Of a DNA stretch of 64,000 nt, positions 5,187-57,552 are shown piece by piece. Source of the DNA: Glandiceps talaboti (lineage: Eukaryota; Hemichordata; Enteropneusta; Spengelidae); NCBI RefSeq assembly GCF_964340395.1, contig NC_135566.1, forward strand, positions 4,778,501 through 4,842,500. Reading direction: 5' to 3'. Every line of letters begins with the position of its first letter. Position 1 is the stretch's first letter. Made by a program: the position numbers and the translations under genes. The notes beneath the pieces are model-generated. The model was not told the origin of the DNA, searched no databases, and was given only the letters and a program-made list of their open reading frames with translations.

Positions 5187-5639
5187 TAGTTCTAAATCGA
5201 GATAAACCACTGGAACTTACAAAAGTACTGGTGGTGGTATGACAGTACTTGTCACCATTTTGCTGATACTTCATAAATCTGTATTCACCTCATGTTATAC
5301 TCAGTACAAAGTACAAGCCCAATTCACAGGACTCACTGTTTTGATTTTAATTTCTAAAATTCTTTAGGGGAAATGGACACTAATATCTCATACAATTTGC
5401 CATTAACTTTTTATGCTCCATTGATTGGAAACAAAACCTGCAGCTTGGAAAGCCCCAACTGTGCTGTGACACCATCTGACCTAAGAATGACCTTAGTGAT
5501 TACTACTAATTCCCTATAGGTAATTCTACATCCACACTGCATACCAAAATAGGTTGGTGGCACTGACATTACAGGTGATACCCTAAGAATTCTCACCATG
5601 CAAAATTAAGCCACTTTAGTAATCTCTGCACAATATAAT

Positions 5640-6145
5640 GTGGCTAGTATCTAACAATGTTTTGGGCAAGGTTGAAAAGTACTGGGTGAATACATATATA
5701 TCTGTGTTCTAACCCTGTTTTGTAATCCAAACAAAATGTAGGAGACGATAACATTAGGGTTAGGGATGTTAGAGTACACATAGCAAGACTGAAGTACACT
5801 GGGTCTGATCCAATATATTTATTGTAAACCCTTAACATCTTTTGTAACACCAACAGCATGAAGTAGGCCAGTAACACATTAAGGTTAGGGATGTTAAAGT
5901 ACCCACCATGGCAAAACTACAGAACACTGGCACTACGATCAAGATTAAATTATGTATCCTAACCAGTGTTGGTACCCAGGGAAAATGAAGGGATAGATAA
6001 TCGTATTGAGTACTGGGGATGTCAAGTACAAACAGCAACACTGCAAAAAACAGAACCCATCTAATTTTTTTTACATATGCAGCCAGTTTTGTAACCAAAA
6101 CAAAATGAAGTAGACAAGTAAAATGAGTAAAGAATGTTCCAGAAC
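5640..6145. repeat. Degenerate ~120-130-bp tandem repeat, 3-4 units
   Basis: Successive units share TTTTGTAAYCCAAACAAAATG-like starts, GTTAGGGATGTTARAGTAC cores and CAAGACTGAAGTACACTGG-like ends (near 5720, 5840, 5960, 6090). Copies are well diverged. Confidence 0.6.
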
Positions 6146-30300: not shown

Positions 30301-33300
30301 AGCATTGAATACATTTGATTACTCCAGTTAAAATTACTTGTTTTATTTACACAGCTATCATCACATTGCATGAGTACAACGGGTGGAATGAGATGACCTA
30401 CCATAGACTGGTGCGGCTGACTGTGGTGCGTCTTGAGTAGGATAAGGGTGTTGGGGTGCTTGGTGTGGTGATGTAGCCAACTGTCCTTGGTGTTGTGGAG
30501 GTATCATTCTGTACATGGTAGTAGGCTACACAATAAAAACACAAAACATCTCAATAGCTATTGATGTGAAAATGGGCACAGCACATCTACATAAAAAGCT
30601 TTTCATTATTAATTGACAAACATGATACAGTTGAAATCATTATGTAAGCTCCTACCCATTCAAATTCAACCAAGTTCAAGTTGGGTATGTGAATGACCCA
30701 AGAGTTCACTAAGGAAAGAAGTCTTTTTGTGAATCATTTAATTTCTAATCAGAACAAAAATTTTGTGTGAGTGTCCATTAGACCCTGTAACAGCATTGAG
30801 GAAATCAGATGCTAGTCTAAAAGTCATTCTCCAGCTGTACCGGTACTGTACTAAGAGTGCAAAATGGCTAATTTATTCTGGTGTATGTACACAGTATACA
30901 GTATTACAAGCAATCAGCGAATGAACAGAAGCTGAAAACATAAAGTTACCTTTTGTTGATACTGTATATGCGGATACTGTACATGCTGTTGTAACATGGG
31001 TTGGTTCATTACTGCACCATGGGCGTGTGGCTGAGCAGCATACTGTACAAACTGGGTTTGGGAATACCCCATTTGTGCTACAATAGGTTGACCAGTTGCA
31101 GCAGACACTGGTAACACATGACCTGGTTGAGCCACGTCTGGGTGGTGCTGCATACGTTGTTGTGTTACTATCGTAGGAGCTGTGAAAGGTAAAAAAAAAT
31201 AGACAGGTCAGAGTGGTCGTAGAATTAGCCTACTGTGTGTCAACCTGAGTCAGATATATATATATTGTGACTGGCTGTGTACACTGTCTGTGACTGGCTG
31301 TGTACACTGTCTGGTCACGTCTCTTGAAGCTGTCAATACATTAGCAAGATACCATGGAGCAATTTTGTCATAATAGCCCTTTCTTCCAAACTAAACACCC
31401 TTCTTCTAAACTAGACTGCTGAACTTACAAACGTTCAACCAAACTACACACACTTTCTGCCAAACTAGAAATCCTTTCAGCCAAACTCAACATCTATTCT
31501 GCTGACTAAAACACCCTTTCTGTCAAACTGAACATGAAATAAAATTACTTACGTCTCTTCTGTGGATAGGCAGCTTTTTGCTGTACTTGTGTCATGCCTG
31601 TGACCATGGTTGGAGCAGCAGGCATAGTCACTTGCATTGGAGTGCTCGTCATTACAGTGTATTGTTGGGAGACACCACCAGAGTACACTGGTTGTCCTGT
31701 ATACGACATTGTATGGATGTTGGCTGGTTGTGGTGCGGCCATCACTACAGGACTATGCTGCTGTTGCCTTGGTGGAGTTGGAGTTTTGGCCACTCCAACC
31801 TTCTGTTTGGGAGAAACATACACTGAATTTAGACATGTATATTTTTTCTATAACTTGCAACACTGTGTTTATTAAAATACTCCTGCATTGGTCTCTTTAC
31901 TTATGAGATAGTTCATCTAAGACTCAATCTGATTAAAATCTGATGTTAGATAGGCTGGTTTTCCTGTATTTACCTTTATTCCATCGTTATTGCATCTTTT
32001 ACGTTAGTTTTTTATTTTCCTGGACGAACGCCTTTCCAACATCTGACACAGTATACTTGGATTTCACGTGTAAGTCTCGCCTTGCGAGCGCAGAGCTCAC
32101 CCAATCAGAAATGTTCTCTCTTAGGCAATTTTGAGCGAGGCTGCCGACATTGTACGCATGCGCACGTTCATCACATTATGAAAATGGCGACAGCGTCGGA
32201 CGCAGACGATGTTAACGTTTCTCAGCAAACAAACGAAGAGTCGGAGTGTATAATTGACGTAAGTTAATGGTCATTTTTCATTCATTATTAATTCCTCTTG
32301 TATCGAATATCTACAAGTTAGAAGCTATTGAGAATTGTAAGTTAACGGCATGTAAAATCTTGTACTAGTAGTAGTACGAAGGCAAACACAAGTAACTTCC
32401 ACAATAACAAACCAACTACCGCTACCTAGCTAGTGTTCGGTCAAATCATTACTTCCATGGTCAACTTGACATTTTTAATTCTTACGCATGATTGTTGAAA
32501 CTATCAATTGTCAACTTATGTTAAAAGAATTCTGTTATTAAATTTGATTTATGCATATAAAGCCTAGTATGTATCTGGCCGAAAATGACGTTCATAAAGG
32601 AATGCCAAAATGGACACAACATTTAAAAGCAAATAAAAAATATTGCGATCACCTTTAGTGATCGTGTCACCAAATATGAAATACTACTTTTTTCTTTTTT
32701 TTAAAACCCCAAACGATTATCTAATTCCATCTGTCATAGTTCAGGTATTACTTTAGCCACGTTAGCAAGACTGTGCTCTACCTTATGTATACTGTGTCTT
32801 ACTGTCTCTATACTGTGTCTAACTGTCTCATTTCCATTCTTCACAGGTTTCTCAACAATTTGGAGTAGCAGTGGAGGATATGAAGTCTTCACAAAAGGAG
32901 GCATTACAATTCCTCCTTTCAGGGAATGATGTCCTCGCAATCCTTCCAACAGGATATGGAAAATCTTTGATTTACCATATGTACCCACATATGTTGACAA
33001 GTCAGGGAACTGTATTGGTGGTTTCACCTCTTGTATCCCTTATGAAGGACCAGGTAAGCTTTCTCTCTCGAAGACAATTAATTAGTATTATTTTCTTGAC
33101 CTATTTGTAATAGGACTGTTACCGGTTCAACTTCTGGTGCTTGATTAAGACACACTGTACACTATGTCAATTTTAAAGTCACTGAATGTTGATTTTTTTA
33201 GATATCAATGTTGACGGAAAGGGGACAGTCTGCAGGACTAGCCAGTGAGTTTGTTGATGGCAACGTGTTACCAACGTACCTCTATGGCTAACCAGAGGAT

Positions 33301-36300
33301 TACCTCAAACAGCAAAATAAAATTGAAACAATTAAAAAAAAGTGACAAAATTGTGTTGTTGGTAGTTGATGAAGTCCATACCATTCCAAAATGGTAAGTG
33401 TTGCTCAAGACATAAAATAGATTGCGATTCATCTTACCCCAATTTCAACTCCTCTTATTTCATCTTGTCCTATTATTAACTCGCCCCAACATCACTTGTA
33501 AAAGTCTAAATGAATTAAGTGCATAGACTGAAATTTAAACGATTTTACATAAGTGGCTAGTCAATGTTCAAATGTGCCAGCATATTGTAGCAAAAGGTGG
33601 TGGTTTTGCATGATTTTTGACCTTCCAAAATGTATTACCATCGACGATGTCACATAATATGCACAATTATATTGCAGAGAGTTTGGGCAAGTTGAGTGGG
33701 ATGAGTTGAAATTTGGAAGAGATGATCCACCGCCCATAGAAAACTTTAACATGTAACGAACCAACTACCCACATTACATGTTGTTGAACGGAAATGCTAC
33801 ACAGTTTAGGATGCTTTAAAAGTAATTAATTTAAAGGAAGTTTAAAAAGTTGAAAGTCAAAGTATTTCATGATTGTTGTAGGTTTTCTAAATGAAATAAA
33901 TAAAAAATAACATGTTACAATTTTTTATATTTACTGACTGAAAAACTAGCACTATTATGCAGATGTCATTTTTTTAACCTTTATCCACATCGATTATTGT
34001 ATTTTATTAAATTTATTATCATTTTTCAGGGGTGAAAAAGCAGATGTCAGTAAAAAAAACAGCCAAAGGGGACATGTTGGGGAACTACGTTCATTTTTCC
34101 CCGATGTCCGAGTACTAGCACTTACTGCCACTGCTTCTAAACGCTTACAATACAAGATCAAGGAGAGTTTAATGGTCGAAGGTTACAAAGTAATTAATGT
34201 CTGTCCAAATAAAGACAATGTTAGATATGCTGTTATCAAAATTCCAAGTGACATACCCTCGGTTTTCTTTTGGATGGTAGATAAACTGCGAGAAGATGGT
34301 GCTGTATTTCCACGAACTGTCATTTATTATTCCTCAATTGATGCAACAGCCAAATTATATCATTATTTTAGGGAGGAATACCCACAATCAGATCAGTTCA
34401 TTGGAATGTATCATAGTGAGACGGATACACAAGTTCACATTTGTCAGAAATAACCAAAGATTCCGAATCAGTGTTTCGTGTAATTTTCTGCACAACAGTC
34501 CTCGGGATGGGTGTTGACATGAAGGACATGCATCATGTCATACACTATGGACCTTCATTGGATATTAAAAGCTACATATAAGAGGCTGGCAGGGTTGGGA
34601 GAGACAATAAATCTTCACATTCTGTTCTACTCTATCATGGGAGAATGTTGCGTGATTGTTGCCCAGAATTGAAAAAAGTATATAGTCAATGATTCTGTAT
34701 GCAGAAGACTCAAATTATTTGAAAATTTTGCTTCAGACAAAGATATTGAAAATATAAAAAGTAAGTCTGGACAACACGATTGTTGTGATGTGTGCCAAAA
34801 CAATTGTAAATGTGGTAAGTGTCTGTCAACGTCAAATTATATTGAGAACCATCTTATTCATTATGCTGCTAAAACTGATAGTGATGATGCCACAAGTGAG
34901 TCAGGTAGTCTGGAGTCAGATGCTGTTGTTGATTCCTTGGAAAGCTGTAGTAGTAGCTGTGAGGATTAATTCCTGCCGTCGCACCTGTACCTGTCTCATT
35001 TATGATATCCTCAGTATCTGTTCACCTAGAAGACTATAGTACTACTGAATCCAATTACATTGTACATGCTTGACCCACCATACCAACTTTTCCTTGAATC
35101 CAACATATTTATAAGACAGAACATGTATTTTTGACTAATTTTATTTCTTTTACAAAAGATGCAAACTATTTACTTTGTGTACCATGTTCCATCCATTTTT
35201 TTTAAAAATACACAATAAATTTTCAAACAGATACCTCGGCCTTGTGTATATTTTTTTATGGAATTAACCAATTATGACATCTCCACTACCTTCTTTAGTT
35301 AACAGCAACTTTAATTTTTTTTACAATAAAACAGGACAGGAAAATGTATGGTCACAAAATAGATGATAAAATAAATCATGCACATGTACGTTATAGTGGC
35401 TTGCAGCCACACATGTTGACAAAGTCATCAACTCATCATCCTTTAATTTCTTTTTCCTTCGATTACCCTTCACTTCTTTTCCTTGTTTGTTGACAAAGTA
35501 GTCTTCAAAGTCAAACCCACATACCACACATGTATTCAGTGGGTCCTGGGCTTTCTTGGGTGGAGTTGAAAACATTCTATATAATACAGTAAGACACAGG
35601 TTTTCTGTCAAAAGAAATGAAATTATTTCAAATACAATGATAAGGTAGTGTACAGTTTACCAGTACTAATAATACTATTTATACTTCAAATATGGTACAG
35701 TAAATACTGAGTAACAGTAGCGTTGTGTGTAGTATTATTTTGTTCCCACAATAATACAGTTTCCTGTTGCCAAAACATTTCCTCACTTGTTGCAACAAGT
35801 CGATATAGTTTGGAAATTGAAGATGAACTGATAATCATTCAATATGGTAACACATTATCATAATCACTGTAATGTGATCAACTTGTCAATGTTTTATGGC
35901 ACCACATTAACTAACCATTATTAATTACCGTTTTCGCTAGCATTTGTAATCACTGTTGATGTGTACAAAACCTATCAGTAATGGAGGTCGATTTCTTATC
36001 TTGTTAAAATATCTTTGTTTCCTAAGCGATTTGGTCTTCATTTACGAGATAACAATAGCGTAAATTCACGGTGGTTCTTTTGACATATTCACAAAATATG
36101 TCATATCAATATAGAAGCGATTTTGTAATCTTTCAATGTCATAAAAAAAAACATGCAAATTTCAACTGGCATAGGGTGTGTAGCTTGTCAATAACTTAGT
36201 ATTGGCCCAAATATAATCTGGAAATAGATGAGTGAAACGTAACAAATCTTGGCTAAAGACACAGCGCACCGACTAGTCGATGCAGGTTACGTCTCCATTT

Positions 36301-39300
36301 GCCGTGACGTTCATTTTAAGCATGAGACCGTGATACCCCGGGCCGTGATGAGGCAAGGAACGGAGACACGGCCGGTCTGCAGTTCATTAGGCGCGCTGTC
36401 TGGCCCATGCCTCAAAACTCTCTATGACAAATACGGGAAACAGTTATTCAAAAAGAAATTGGTAAATGGAAAGCAGCTTACTTACCACTACTTGGTATTT
36501 ATCTCCTGTTCACGTTAGTCGTTATATGCATCTGGGCTCCGCTAGTGCACGATCGCTGGGTTGTTTACAACGGAAGCTGTTTGTTTGTGCGTTTCCGATG
36601 CCTCCAATTTGACCTCAGGCGATTATTGAAACGAACACTCTGATTGGCTCGCTCGCAAGGCGAGACTTACACGTGAAATCCAAGTATACTGTGTCAGATG
36701 TTGGAAAGGCGTTCGTCCAGGAAAATAAAAAACTAACGTAAAAGACGCAATAACGATGGAATAAAGGTAAATACAGGAAAACCAGCCTATCTAACATCAG
36801 ATTTTAATCAGATTGTCTAAGACTCTGCTCAGTCCTTCCTTGGAGAAGATAAAGAAGTCACAGGTTCATAATTTCACAACAACTTGGATCGATTTTAGGA
36901 GATCTTCTATTTCTAATTAGAAGCTTTTAGAATACGTAATATGTTTGCAGTACAACAATTGAGGTGAGATTTTGGGTGTCAATATCATGTTTTAGTGGTT
37001 GTGGCAATGCAGGTATTTCTTGATGTGGATACAGTTTTAGTATTGAACAGAAGAGATCAAGTTTGGACTGACAGACTCAACATCTACATCAGCTTTATCA
37101 TGTCGAGACTACACACATCGTGACATTTTATTCAATTCTGTAATAACAAACATACAACACTTACTGGAACAAATGATTTCGCATGTGGATTAAACTCTTT
37201 AGCTTCTGGATTAAGAGTAGATTTCTTGGTTATACTGAAAGATAAAGCCACAATCAATGTTAATTTGGTGTTAACCAATATGGCAAAAATCACTTTGAAC
37301 ACTATCTCAAACTAAACAATGTCGAGATATAGGATGAACCCCTCTCTCAAAAAGAACCAATATATAAAATTGATATAGCTCACCAAGGTGGTATATTACT
37401 ATCACCATATCACTGAGACTGTGTTCTCTTGAGGTGCTGAGAAGACGGTTTAAATCTATCATTTCTTGAAAGTGGGAACATTTAGTTCACAATACATTTT
37501 TTATGGTATGCTACTGTCGTTTTCTTGAAAAGACACAGAGATTGCAAAGTTATATGAGTGCAATTTCTTTGAAGATGCAAAAAAAAATTCATAAGAACTC
37601 ACTCCTCAGTTTTACTAGTGGGTGTAGGTGCAGGTGTTGTAGATTCTTTAGGGTTATCTGTATTACTTGTAGAAGCAGCAACACTGGTTTCACCAGTCTT
37701 ACTCTCTTTGCTATCTCTTGGATTTCCCTTTTCTGCTTCTTTTGTTTTCCCACTTGACTGTTGCAGCTGTGAAATCAATAACATGATAGTAAATATCAAC
37801 ACGAAATGATCACATTTGTAACAACTATACATATAGTTAGTTAGAATGTATGCGAAGTACTCTACATAGAATTCTTAAATTTGCAAAATCCATACATTTT
37901 TACATGAATCTGCATGAGGATTTGTTATTAGTATGATGGCGTATACACACACTCCCATGGTATTCTTAAAAGTTGAAGGCTGCATTTTACTACAATTCAT
38001 CACATCAGTGTTATCTTAACTTGGATTACACAGGATTACTCATAAGTTCTGAGACAGCTTTTTCTACAGCTCTACAGCTCTGCCAAACAACTGTACTTCA
38101 CACCTAAATTTTAATCCTTAATCTGAACTGGACCTTTAAAGGGACGTGCCCACATTTGAACATTTTTCTGGACTATTTTTCTAATGACTCATAATAACAA
38201 GACCCTCTTAGGTCATTCATATTTTCCTCAGATGAATGAAGAAATGTATTGGGGAAGAATATCTAATTGTACATACTGAAATGATCACTAGTAACCACAA
38301 GATCTATAGCACAAGAGATTTGATCACATAATATTTGGGTACACCCATACGCATCAAGTTCATACAGATGTATACATACACACACAAACTTGTCAATGTT
38401 GTATGGATATGTTATACTCATTTAGAGGAACAAATCAATACAAATATGGGTACTAGAGGTTTACATTCATTAAGTATGTACTCTATAGAAACTGTCTGGG
38501 GTTGGTCTGCATCCCTTTACCACAGAGTCACTAATATTTTGTCAAAATTGTTGTGCTTGCTGACACTCTCAGAGTTTACATCAACTCACCTTAAAGTCGG
38601 CACCAAATTTTTTAAGATCTTCTATTTTCTTCATATCTCCTACATCACTACGTGCTGTGATAAAACATACAAAATATTGAAATATTGAAAAATACAATCA
38701 AAACAAGCATGGACAATTTCATACAGAATACTTCTACATGTTGATTGATAACTGGTCATTCTGTTTTCCAATAACTAAGTTCTGTACAGTAATGGGGTTG
38801 AGGCATGCGTTTTTGATAAGAACAAACCACATAAACATGGATAGGAATTAAACAAAGGAATTGTTGTAGTCATAAATCAATAACATTTGTTACAAATACA
38901 ACATATGCTAGTGAGAGTGTATAATGATGTCTGTCATACCCATGTTTTTTAGTTTGTTTAGAAATATGATATAAACATTGAAAGAATGATCTTCAGGTCA
39001 CATATACCACGATAACCACAGAGTAACAGCTACTTTATACAGTAAGATACAGTCATGGGTCGTGCTCTCACACATTTTTTTTTGGTGTCGTAGAGCAGAA
39101 GTCTTCTAAATTCAAAGGCACAGACCCCAACACAAATGTGCTACTAATTGGTGTTGTTGGGCTAATAAAACGAGTCTTCCTCAAAGACATAATCCCCAGC
39201 ATTTCAAATTACAAAGTCATTCAGGTAAACTATTGTGAAGGTCACATAATAAAGTGTTGTAATTATTGAACTACAGTATCTGACATTTATGCCAGGTTTG

Positions 39301-54766: not shown

Positions 54767-56911
54767 TCAATCTTTTACAGCATACTCATCAGTTTCCTTT
54801 AAATCTTTACACTCATCTTTCAAAATCATCTGTCTAAATGTCATGTTGATTCTAGGTAGACTTGCTCTCTTTCTCCTTGGCAAGCTATGATACCAATACA
54901 CATTAGTAGGGTGATTCATCATGAGCAAGCTGCCATGTTGGAGTTCGATGGTAATTGGAGGCAAGTCTCGTGACGCTCTATTGCCACGACTATTGGCATG
55001 CTGAAACACAAAGTCCCTGGCTTGTCCTAATGATAATGATGCTATTGATGCAGTTGGTACCAAGTCTTTCTCATCATCACGATGTGCTCCCATGTGGTCG
55101 TTACCATCGTTATACCTAATTAAAAGAATTCGGGAGAACCTTGTGAAGAGATTGTGTATTCATAATGGCCAAAAATTGTTCTACAAGACATGATAATATG
55201 CAAATGAACTTACAGATGGACATGCTACAAACACAAGTACACGAATGCTAAAACACAACATTCTAGCATGATGTTGACATAGGACTCAATTTTATCATCA
55301 AGTAATATTCCTACCTTATGGCAAGTCATACAGCAGACTTTGACTATTATATACCTAGAGTACTTCACAGTTTTTGACAAAAGTTACTTTTCTTTTCAAA
55401 TACAACGCTTTTGTGCAATCATTTTTGTTTTTACGTCTTGAAATTGACACCCAAAGTAACTCCTTACTAAGGATCACTTCAATCCACAAAATTGAAATTG
55501 TGGATTCAATATTTCTTTTTTTTTATTTGTTCCTAATTACAATGCAACCCTTCATGACACAGACATGATTTTTGCGTGTGTAGCACTTGGATGATCTGAT
55601 TGGACATCATATGCTACACACTGGGATTCCATTGGTTGCTGTGACTTCATCTTAATGGCAGTTGTTTTTGAAATAAAAAGATCTTTTTGATTGGTCTATA
55701 ACTTACATGATGATGGCAATTCATGGCCATGTGAGGGCGTGCTACAAACATACATGAAAAATCCCCTGTGGCTCCAAGGATTGAAATGATGTTTGTACCA
55801 AAATAAAAAACTATGGATAATTCAAAATAAAATAATTTTGGAATGACCAGGAACTTATGATACAATTTTTCTCACTGAGATAGAAGTTATAAATATGATA
55901 GAGACGATACCTATTTATCAACACAAAATTAAATTTCTGTCCGGTTACTTGTGTTATTTTATCCCGGATCTCAGTCAGAAATGGAATCCATGGTCTGGCT
56001 GGAATACAGTTATTGGAAAATGTGTAAGTCAATCCTGTATCACCATGAGCAACCTACAAAAACAAGAGGAAGGAAATTTGGTGAATATCTTTGTCCTTGT
56101 AAAGTGTTACTATAAACCTGAGGGCTCGAAATTAGCAGTAGTCCAGCGCATATAGACTACCAAAAATAGTATCTAGACTAGCAAATTAGAAGTAGTCTAG
56201 AAAATATAGACCACCTAACATTATATCTTGACTACCAAATTTATGTGGTAGTCTGTTAGACCAATAGAAACCAATGGAAGATTGTTGCTGAAATAGATTA
56301 CTTGGATAAATTTGACTACCAACCAAAAAGTTAAATTTGAGCCCTGCAAACAAATAGAACTATAAACAAAGGTTTACTACCATAGTTTCACTGAAAAATA
56401 TACTTTTGAAAAGTAAAAATAAATAAAAATAAATGGCTATGAGAACTCAAAGACAACAAACCAAGGTATACAATTCCAATTCACCAATTTTCTATATGTA
56501 GAAGGTGTGACATTCATATAATACCTGTTTTCTGGGTATATTATGCCATTTCCCAAAAATATTGACTTGTGCCAATTTCCCTGTATTGTATACAAGTTGT
56601 TCTTCACATTCTTTGTACAAGTCATCTGCCTCTCTCTTAGAGAACAACTGTACATAATCACAGTCCAAATTTTCCGCTTCATATTGTTTCCATGACAACC
56701 CAGCAGCTCGAGCTTTTAATAAATATTGTTTATCATCTGTCTGTTCTTCATCCGTTTCCAACACCTCCGACTTTGGTGAACTCTGTTTGGTTTTTTGTGT
56801 GTTTTCGTCAATTCTTTCTTTCTTCACCTTGCAAGGAAGCTCGGGGTCGTCTGTTTCACTTCCCGCCGATATATCGTCAGTTGGACGCTTTCTCACGACA
56901 AATTTATCCAT
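54767..56911 (-). CDS. ALKBH2: DNA oxidative demethylase ALKBH2, complete
   Basis: ALKBH2 is a nuclear Fe(II)/2-oxoglutarate dioxygenase that removes 1-methyladenine and 3-methylcytosine from DNA. Exons: 56525-56911, 55911-56053, 54767-55115 (387+143+349 nt, 292 aa), phases consistent. Exon 1 gives MDKFVVRKRP, a basic/acidic linker and NIFGKWHNIPRKQ (human VFGKWHSVPRKQ). Exon 2 gives GDTGLTYTFSNN and GQKFNFVLINR. Exon 3 contains the iron-binding HxD in GAHRDDE, ELQHGSLLMMNHPTN with the second histidine, and PRINMTFR with the 2-oxoglutarate-binding arginines. All catalytic positions are present, so the enzyme should be active. The N-terminus resembles the human PCNA-interacting start MDRFLVK. 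A minisatellite begins a few bases after the stop codon. Confidence 0.96.
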
Positions 56912-57228: not shown

Positions 57229-57552
57229 TAATACATCCAATGCACAGTCACTTGTGAACTAATATTCCATTCCAGGATGGTGATATTCTAGTCTAGGATG
57301 TTCATAATACAAAATAATGACGTTTTTATAGGTATTTACGATAGTCAAAAAATATCGTTACCGGTGACTTTTTCGGATAAGAGAGACAGGCATCGGTAAC
57401 GTCATTTTTTGAATGCCGTAAATACTTACAATAACGTCATTATTTTGTATTATGATCATCCTAGACTAGAATATCACCATCCTGGAATGGAATATAGTTC
57501 ACAAGTGACTGTGCATAATACTTCTAAAAACACAACGCCATTGGATGTAGAC
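57229..57552. repeat. Large imperfect palindrome (foldback element)
   Basis: Left arm from TACATCCAATGCACAGTCAC (57233 on) is mirrored on the right through CTGTGCA and, after a ~23-bp interruption, CATTGGATGTA. Arms include TTCCAGGATGGTGATATTCT / AGAATATCACCATCCTGGAA and AATAATGACGT / ACGTCATTATT, converging on a short loop around 57370-57395. The right arm's extra segment between CTGTGCA and CATTGGATG looks like a later small insertion. Non-coding, between ALKBH2 and the SPPL3 3' end. Confidence 0.8.

Follow-up and report, generated by a model that had tools for sequence, protein, structure and literature searches.

The transposon and its insertion site

A young, recently inserted DNA transposon of 4.9 kb lies in an ataxin-2 gene in the window, by which we mean the whole 64-kb stretch of DNA that was analysed. 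The element spans positions 31925-36815 (4891 bp; coordinates are those of the window unless a contig or locus is named) between exact 9-bp target-site duplications (TSDs), TCTAAGACT, at 31916..31924 and 36816..36824, which are unstranded features recognised by sequence match and flank comparison. The same 9-mer occurs only twice in the 64-kb window, once on each flank of the element. An inverted-repeat search identified 166-bp terminal inverted repeats (TIRs) at 31925..32090 on the plus strand, starting CAATCTGATTAAAATCTGATG, and at 36650..36815 on the minus strand; the two differ by one mismatch (99% complementary over 166 nt) and no longer inverted repeat is present in the 64-kb window. Both the inverted termini and the perfect duplication had been described in an earlier note on this DNA and are borne out.

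The ataxin-2 location given in that note is likewise supported. The host gene lies on the minus strand and encodes an LsmAD domain (Pfam, E 2e-17, above cut-off) together with a weak match to the ataxin-2 SM domain (Pfam, 3.6e-5, below cut-off). The element is found on the 3' side of the LsmAD/SM exons and, past it, the downstream open frames resemble the Pro/Gln-rich end of an ataxin-2-like gene, pointing to an insertion within an intron of that gene.

A broken RecQ-family helicase

On the plus strand, the element carries the remains of a helicase gene whose four exons were deduced by eye from splice signals, so that all splice sites are inferred. Exon 1 (32178..32258) was assigned from its reading frame and splice signal, whilst exon 2 (32847..33053), with motifs I and Ia (TGYGKS), is matched by the Pfam DEAD and the RecQ models. 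Exon 3 (33202..33393) encodes a DEVH box and contains one frame change and an in-frame stop at 33289-33291. Exon 4 (34030..34969) encodes motifs III-VI and a Cys-rich end, with a frame change after 34430 and a stop within motif VI at 34579-34581. The pieces match Pfam DEAD with E 2.4e-10 and a window exon matches NCBIfam RecQ models at 1e-16, all NCBIfam RecQ scores falling under the whole-protein cut-offs, as each open frame covers just part of the protein. A helicase relative on C2 matches the PDB chains of BLM, RECQ1 and WRN (E from 3e-18). The earlier note was thus right to see a RecQ-like helicase as cargo, but the gene is not intact.

At least part of the helicase is present in all six long copies of the element (see below), as are both stops, and the frame change after motif IV is also common to the long copies. 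Since these near-identical copies share the stops, the family must have spread after the helicase was broken. Motif VI is still open in the relatives on C1 and C2. Comparison between helicase families gave dN/dS values of 0.09 (L075-L076) and 0.10 (window-L076), with dS near saturation in both cases, and 0.03 (L076-L077), the L075-L077 value being undefined; between the window and L075, the C1 copy, the value is 0.57. Low values between families with 0.57 against the C1 copy would be expected of a gene that was once under selection and is now relaxed.

Copies in the genome and their target-site duplications

The earlier note had proposed searching the genome for the TIR and collecting long copies. 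This search of the 590-Mb host assembly returned at least 71 matches (40 of 245 candidates were scored), from which five further long copies and 15 short copies were fetched for comparison, giving 21 copies with that in the window. The long copies, at least six including the window copy, measure 4707-5302 bp and are 99.3-99.9% identical in ungapped aligned columns. They differ from one another by indels: L032 and L034 lack 233 bp in the helicase exon 3 region, L031 lacks 53 bp, L034 has acquired a nested insert and L035 has an additional 111-bp TIR unit at each end. The insert in L034 (C4:23666200-23672250), located near the equivalent of window position 36550, is 608 bp long including one copy of its own 9-bp duplication, TCGCTGGGT, and its ends read ACGAGTATAAA. 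The 15 short copies (207-415 bp) have the same termini as the window copy and 9- or 10-bp TSDs. Several short copies, L040, L041, L042 and L049, contain three or four TIR units.

Across the six long and 15 short copies, the TSD is an exact 9 bp in 14 cases and an exact 10 bp in six, and in the one remaining copy the two 9-bp repeats differ by a mismatch. L030, which would have been the 22nd locus, was left out of the count, its left end lacking the exact 13-mer. The earlier note had asked whether other copies also show 9-bp duplications; in the family as a whole the length is 9 or 10 bp. When left and right flanks were paired across different copies, the 420 pairs matched over at most 6 bp, and the duplications thus exceed chance. 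T occupies position +2 past the 3' edge of the duplication in 16 of the 21 insertion sites, often inside TAC, possibly reflecting a target preference.

The 21-bp terminus CAATCTGATTAAAATCYGATG has 3348 exact occurrences in the genome, with none for the reversed control, and marks a very large family of short copies. Many of the 100 listed occurrences form pairs that face each other across a few hundred bases.

DUF6589 genes paired with RecQ helicases

A genome search with PF20231 (DUF6589) found 20 matches, which fall into 16 loci; the helicase of L081, taken from the pair at C8:16391881, found 41, which fall into 33 places. A RecQ helicase is found within 5 kb of nine of the 16 DUF6589 loci, with 0.02 expected by chance, and in all nine the two genes are convergent, tail to tail. 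Near-twin places on C20 and C26 are among these pairs. Two of the nine DUF6589 matches sit just under the Pfam cut-off (26.4 vs 27 bits), and the pairs at C8:16391881 and on C10 had been noticed before counting. The remaining seven DUF6589 loci have no helicase within 10 kb; two of these seven, at C7:8362883 and C16:7639053, lie in very long frames (2240 and 1860 aa). Conversely, DUF6589 is missing from the 10 kb around 24 of the 33 helicase places, six of which belong to the family of the window element. Pfam confirmed both genes at L081 and at L082; these two loci lack the CAATCTGATT terminus and a search there for a TIR or TSD found none.

The window element has the layout of these pairs, with the helicase on the plus strand, a second gene on the minus strand and their tails facing. 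The same is seen in L077, an older relative with the window element's terminus, where a RecQ helicase faces a fragment of a DUF6589 transposase. A right end of L077 was not found within the following 10 kb, and it is therefore not proven that the DUF6589 fragment is part of the L077 element. In L076 the terminus points away from the helicase. No intact copy combining the window termini with a transposase was found in the genome search.

A leftover exon of the second gene

The earlier note had reported no visible transposase. This is true of the catalytic part, but the minus strand also holds the leading exon of another gene, which was overlooked. This Cys-rich first coding exon (35408..35596) was identified by tblastx, with 48% identity over 63 aa to L078; it lies in a reading frame at 35321-35656, and the remnant as a whole extends over about 35324-35596. 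Genome matches place the exon in all six long copies, in the C1 relative and at four distant places. Homology to L078 ends at about 35408, which may be the edge of an internal deletion.

The link between this exon and DUF6589 is indirect and made stepwise, from the window exon to L080, from L080 to the minus-strand gene of L077 and from there to DUF6589. In L080, the Cys-rich exon occurs twice behind the window element's terminus, apparently through a tandem duplication, and the next piece is 54% identical to the L077 minus gene (E 1.5e-16). The neighbouring piece of L077 matches a profile built from the L081 and L082 DUF6589 transposases with E 1e-11, the best of 1695 frames; the second and third matches fall within the same L077 gene and are not significant (0.27 and 0.68). 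Detection required this profile, the L077 minus pieces giving no Pfam match even at E 10, and against the window copy the profile's best match has E 0.58. Taken together, these matches suggest that the leftover window exon belongs to a DUF6589 gene. Counting against this reading, the second gene in L080 runs into pogo-like DDE_1 matches (5.6e-8 and 3.4e-7), located at 382-786 and 5483-5854 of that locus, perhaps the result of a later insertion.

Classification

DUF6589 is, we assume, the transposase of the Academ superfamily, whose AcademH lineage was reportedly described in Kojima 2020, Mob DNA 11:15. According to the account of these lineages in PMC10045372, AcademH elements generate duplications of 9 or 10 bp, whilst AcademX elements generate duplications of 3 or 4 bp and encode a nuclease in place of the helicase. 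Compared by description, the family studied here resembles AcademH in its helicase gene, which is of superfamily II (DEAD, RecQ), in its animal host and in its duplications, 20 of the 21 being exact at 9 or 10 bp and one a 9-bp duplication with a mismatch. It differs from AcademH in that the helicase is broken in all six long copies and the window copy lacks a catalytic transposase: of the DDE transposase it has the leading exon only, with a DUF6589 fragment beside the L077 helicase. AcademX would share a presumably related transposase but has a nuclease rather than a helicase, and none of the 21 copies has a 3- or 4-bp TSD. The 15 short copies, with their common termini and 9/10-bp TSDs, are like MITEs or foldback elements, from which the window copy differs in its length and in the gene remnants that it carries.

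The earlier note had offered two options, an internally deleted AcademH derivative or a family that conserves the helicase as its cargo. The first is the better supported, by the 9/10-bp TSDs, the RecQ helicase, the leftover exon and L077, and we consider it very probable that the element is a recently inserted, non-autonomous AcademH-type DNA transposon, internally deleted and moved in trans. Mobility in trans, also put forward in the note, follows from both options and is likely. That the helicase is a working, selected cargo mobilised by unrelated transposases would fit its being the largest recognisable gene, retained at least partly in every long copy; with two identical stops in all six, internal losses of 233 and 53 bp in three of them, a dN/dS of 0.57 against the nearest relative and 15 of 21 copies too short to hold a helicase, a helicase-only family is most improbable. 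What we see is most likely a shortened copy, carried as a passenger, of an already known kind of transposon.

Other superfamilies have also to be weighed. Mutator-like elements (MULEs) have long TIRs and 9-bp duplications, and a MULE that had captured a RecQ gene would account for the TIR length; moreover, a gene near the C1 relative resembles CaRF/MULE-like RNaseH proteins (Pfam ALS2CR8 3.7e-11, ZSWIM RNaseH 8e-7, and MULE 1.4e-4, below cut-off). Yet of this gene's eight genome matches only the starting one has a helicase match in its vicinity, termini are lacking in the C1 copy and the DUF6589-RecQ pairing is much stronger, all of which make such a capture very unlikely. Pfam scanning of the element's frames (five in the main scan) found no MULE transposase between the TIRs of the window copy, although an autonomous copy elsewhere might encode one. 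As a candidate for the family's transposase, the MULE-like gene beside the C1 helicase was rejected, being unlinked to helicases elsewhere.

Kolobok transposons duplicate TTAA, whereas all 21 duplications here are of 9-10 bp and vary in sequence. The KolobokH lineage does encode a RecQ helicase adjoining its transposase, but is reported, in the account of it in PMC9587614, from fungi only, and we give an origin from it almost no weight. A superfamily distinct from Academ, characterised by a DUF6589 transposase and a RecQ helicase, would be consistent with several observations: the equation of DUF6589 with Academ is an assumption; a literature search found no paper that uses DUF6589 or PF20231 for the Academ transposase; and none of the eight XPG_I nuclease matches in the genome, sought as a sign that DUF6589 is Academ, is near any of the 16 DUF6589 loci. 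The combination of a helicase with 9/10-bp TSDs nevertheless corresponds exactly to AcademH as described in PMC10045372, leaving a distinct superfamily decidedly unlikely. Framed more specifically, as a separate superfamily of tail-to-tail DUF6589 and RecQ genes in which the stagger alternates from 9 to 10 bp and the helicase can be lost from passengers as small as ~210 bp, its action being either in trans or absent, the idea is an unlikely one.

Proposed history and implications

For the deleted AcademH-type transposon that we favour, the ancestor would have had two tail-to-tail genes between its TIRs, encoding a RecQ-family helicase and a DUF6589-type transposase. An internal deletion would have taken the transposase except for its first exon, with decay of the helicase following. 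An intact relative may then supply the transposase, and perhaps the helicase, in trans; its recognition of the TIRs would allow a copy to be cut out and inserted with a staggered cut of 9 or 10 bp. Both this supply and whatever the helicase may contribute mechanically are inferred.

The puzzle of a helicase element without a transposase is in this way reduced to an ordinary deletion derivative, and a single animal genome is seen to combine DUF6589-RecQ pairs with passengers that carry a helicase and with a large set of short ones. It has been suggested, in the account of PMC10045372, that the transposon helicase sets duplication length. As very short copies still have duplications of 9 or 10 bp, helicase-free donors make it possible to test what the transposon helicase does and whether it has this role.

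Other features of the window

An Rfam search of the window gave zero matches. At 57262-57495 there is a near-perfect inverted repeat of 113 nt with an 8-nt spacer (88% complementary), and at 54767-55159 on the minus strand an exon encoding an AlkB-like 2OG-Fe(II) oxygenase (Pfam 5e-23), presumably ALKBH2.
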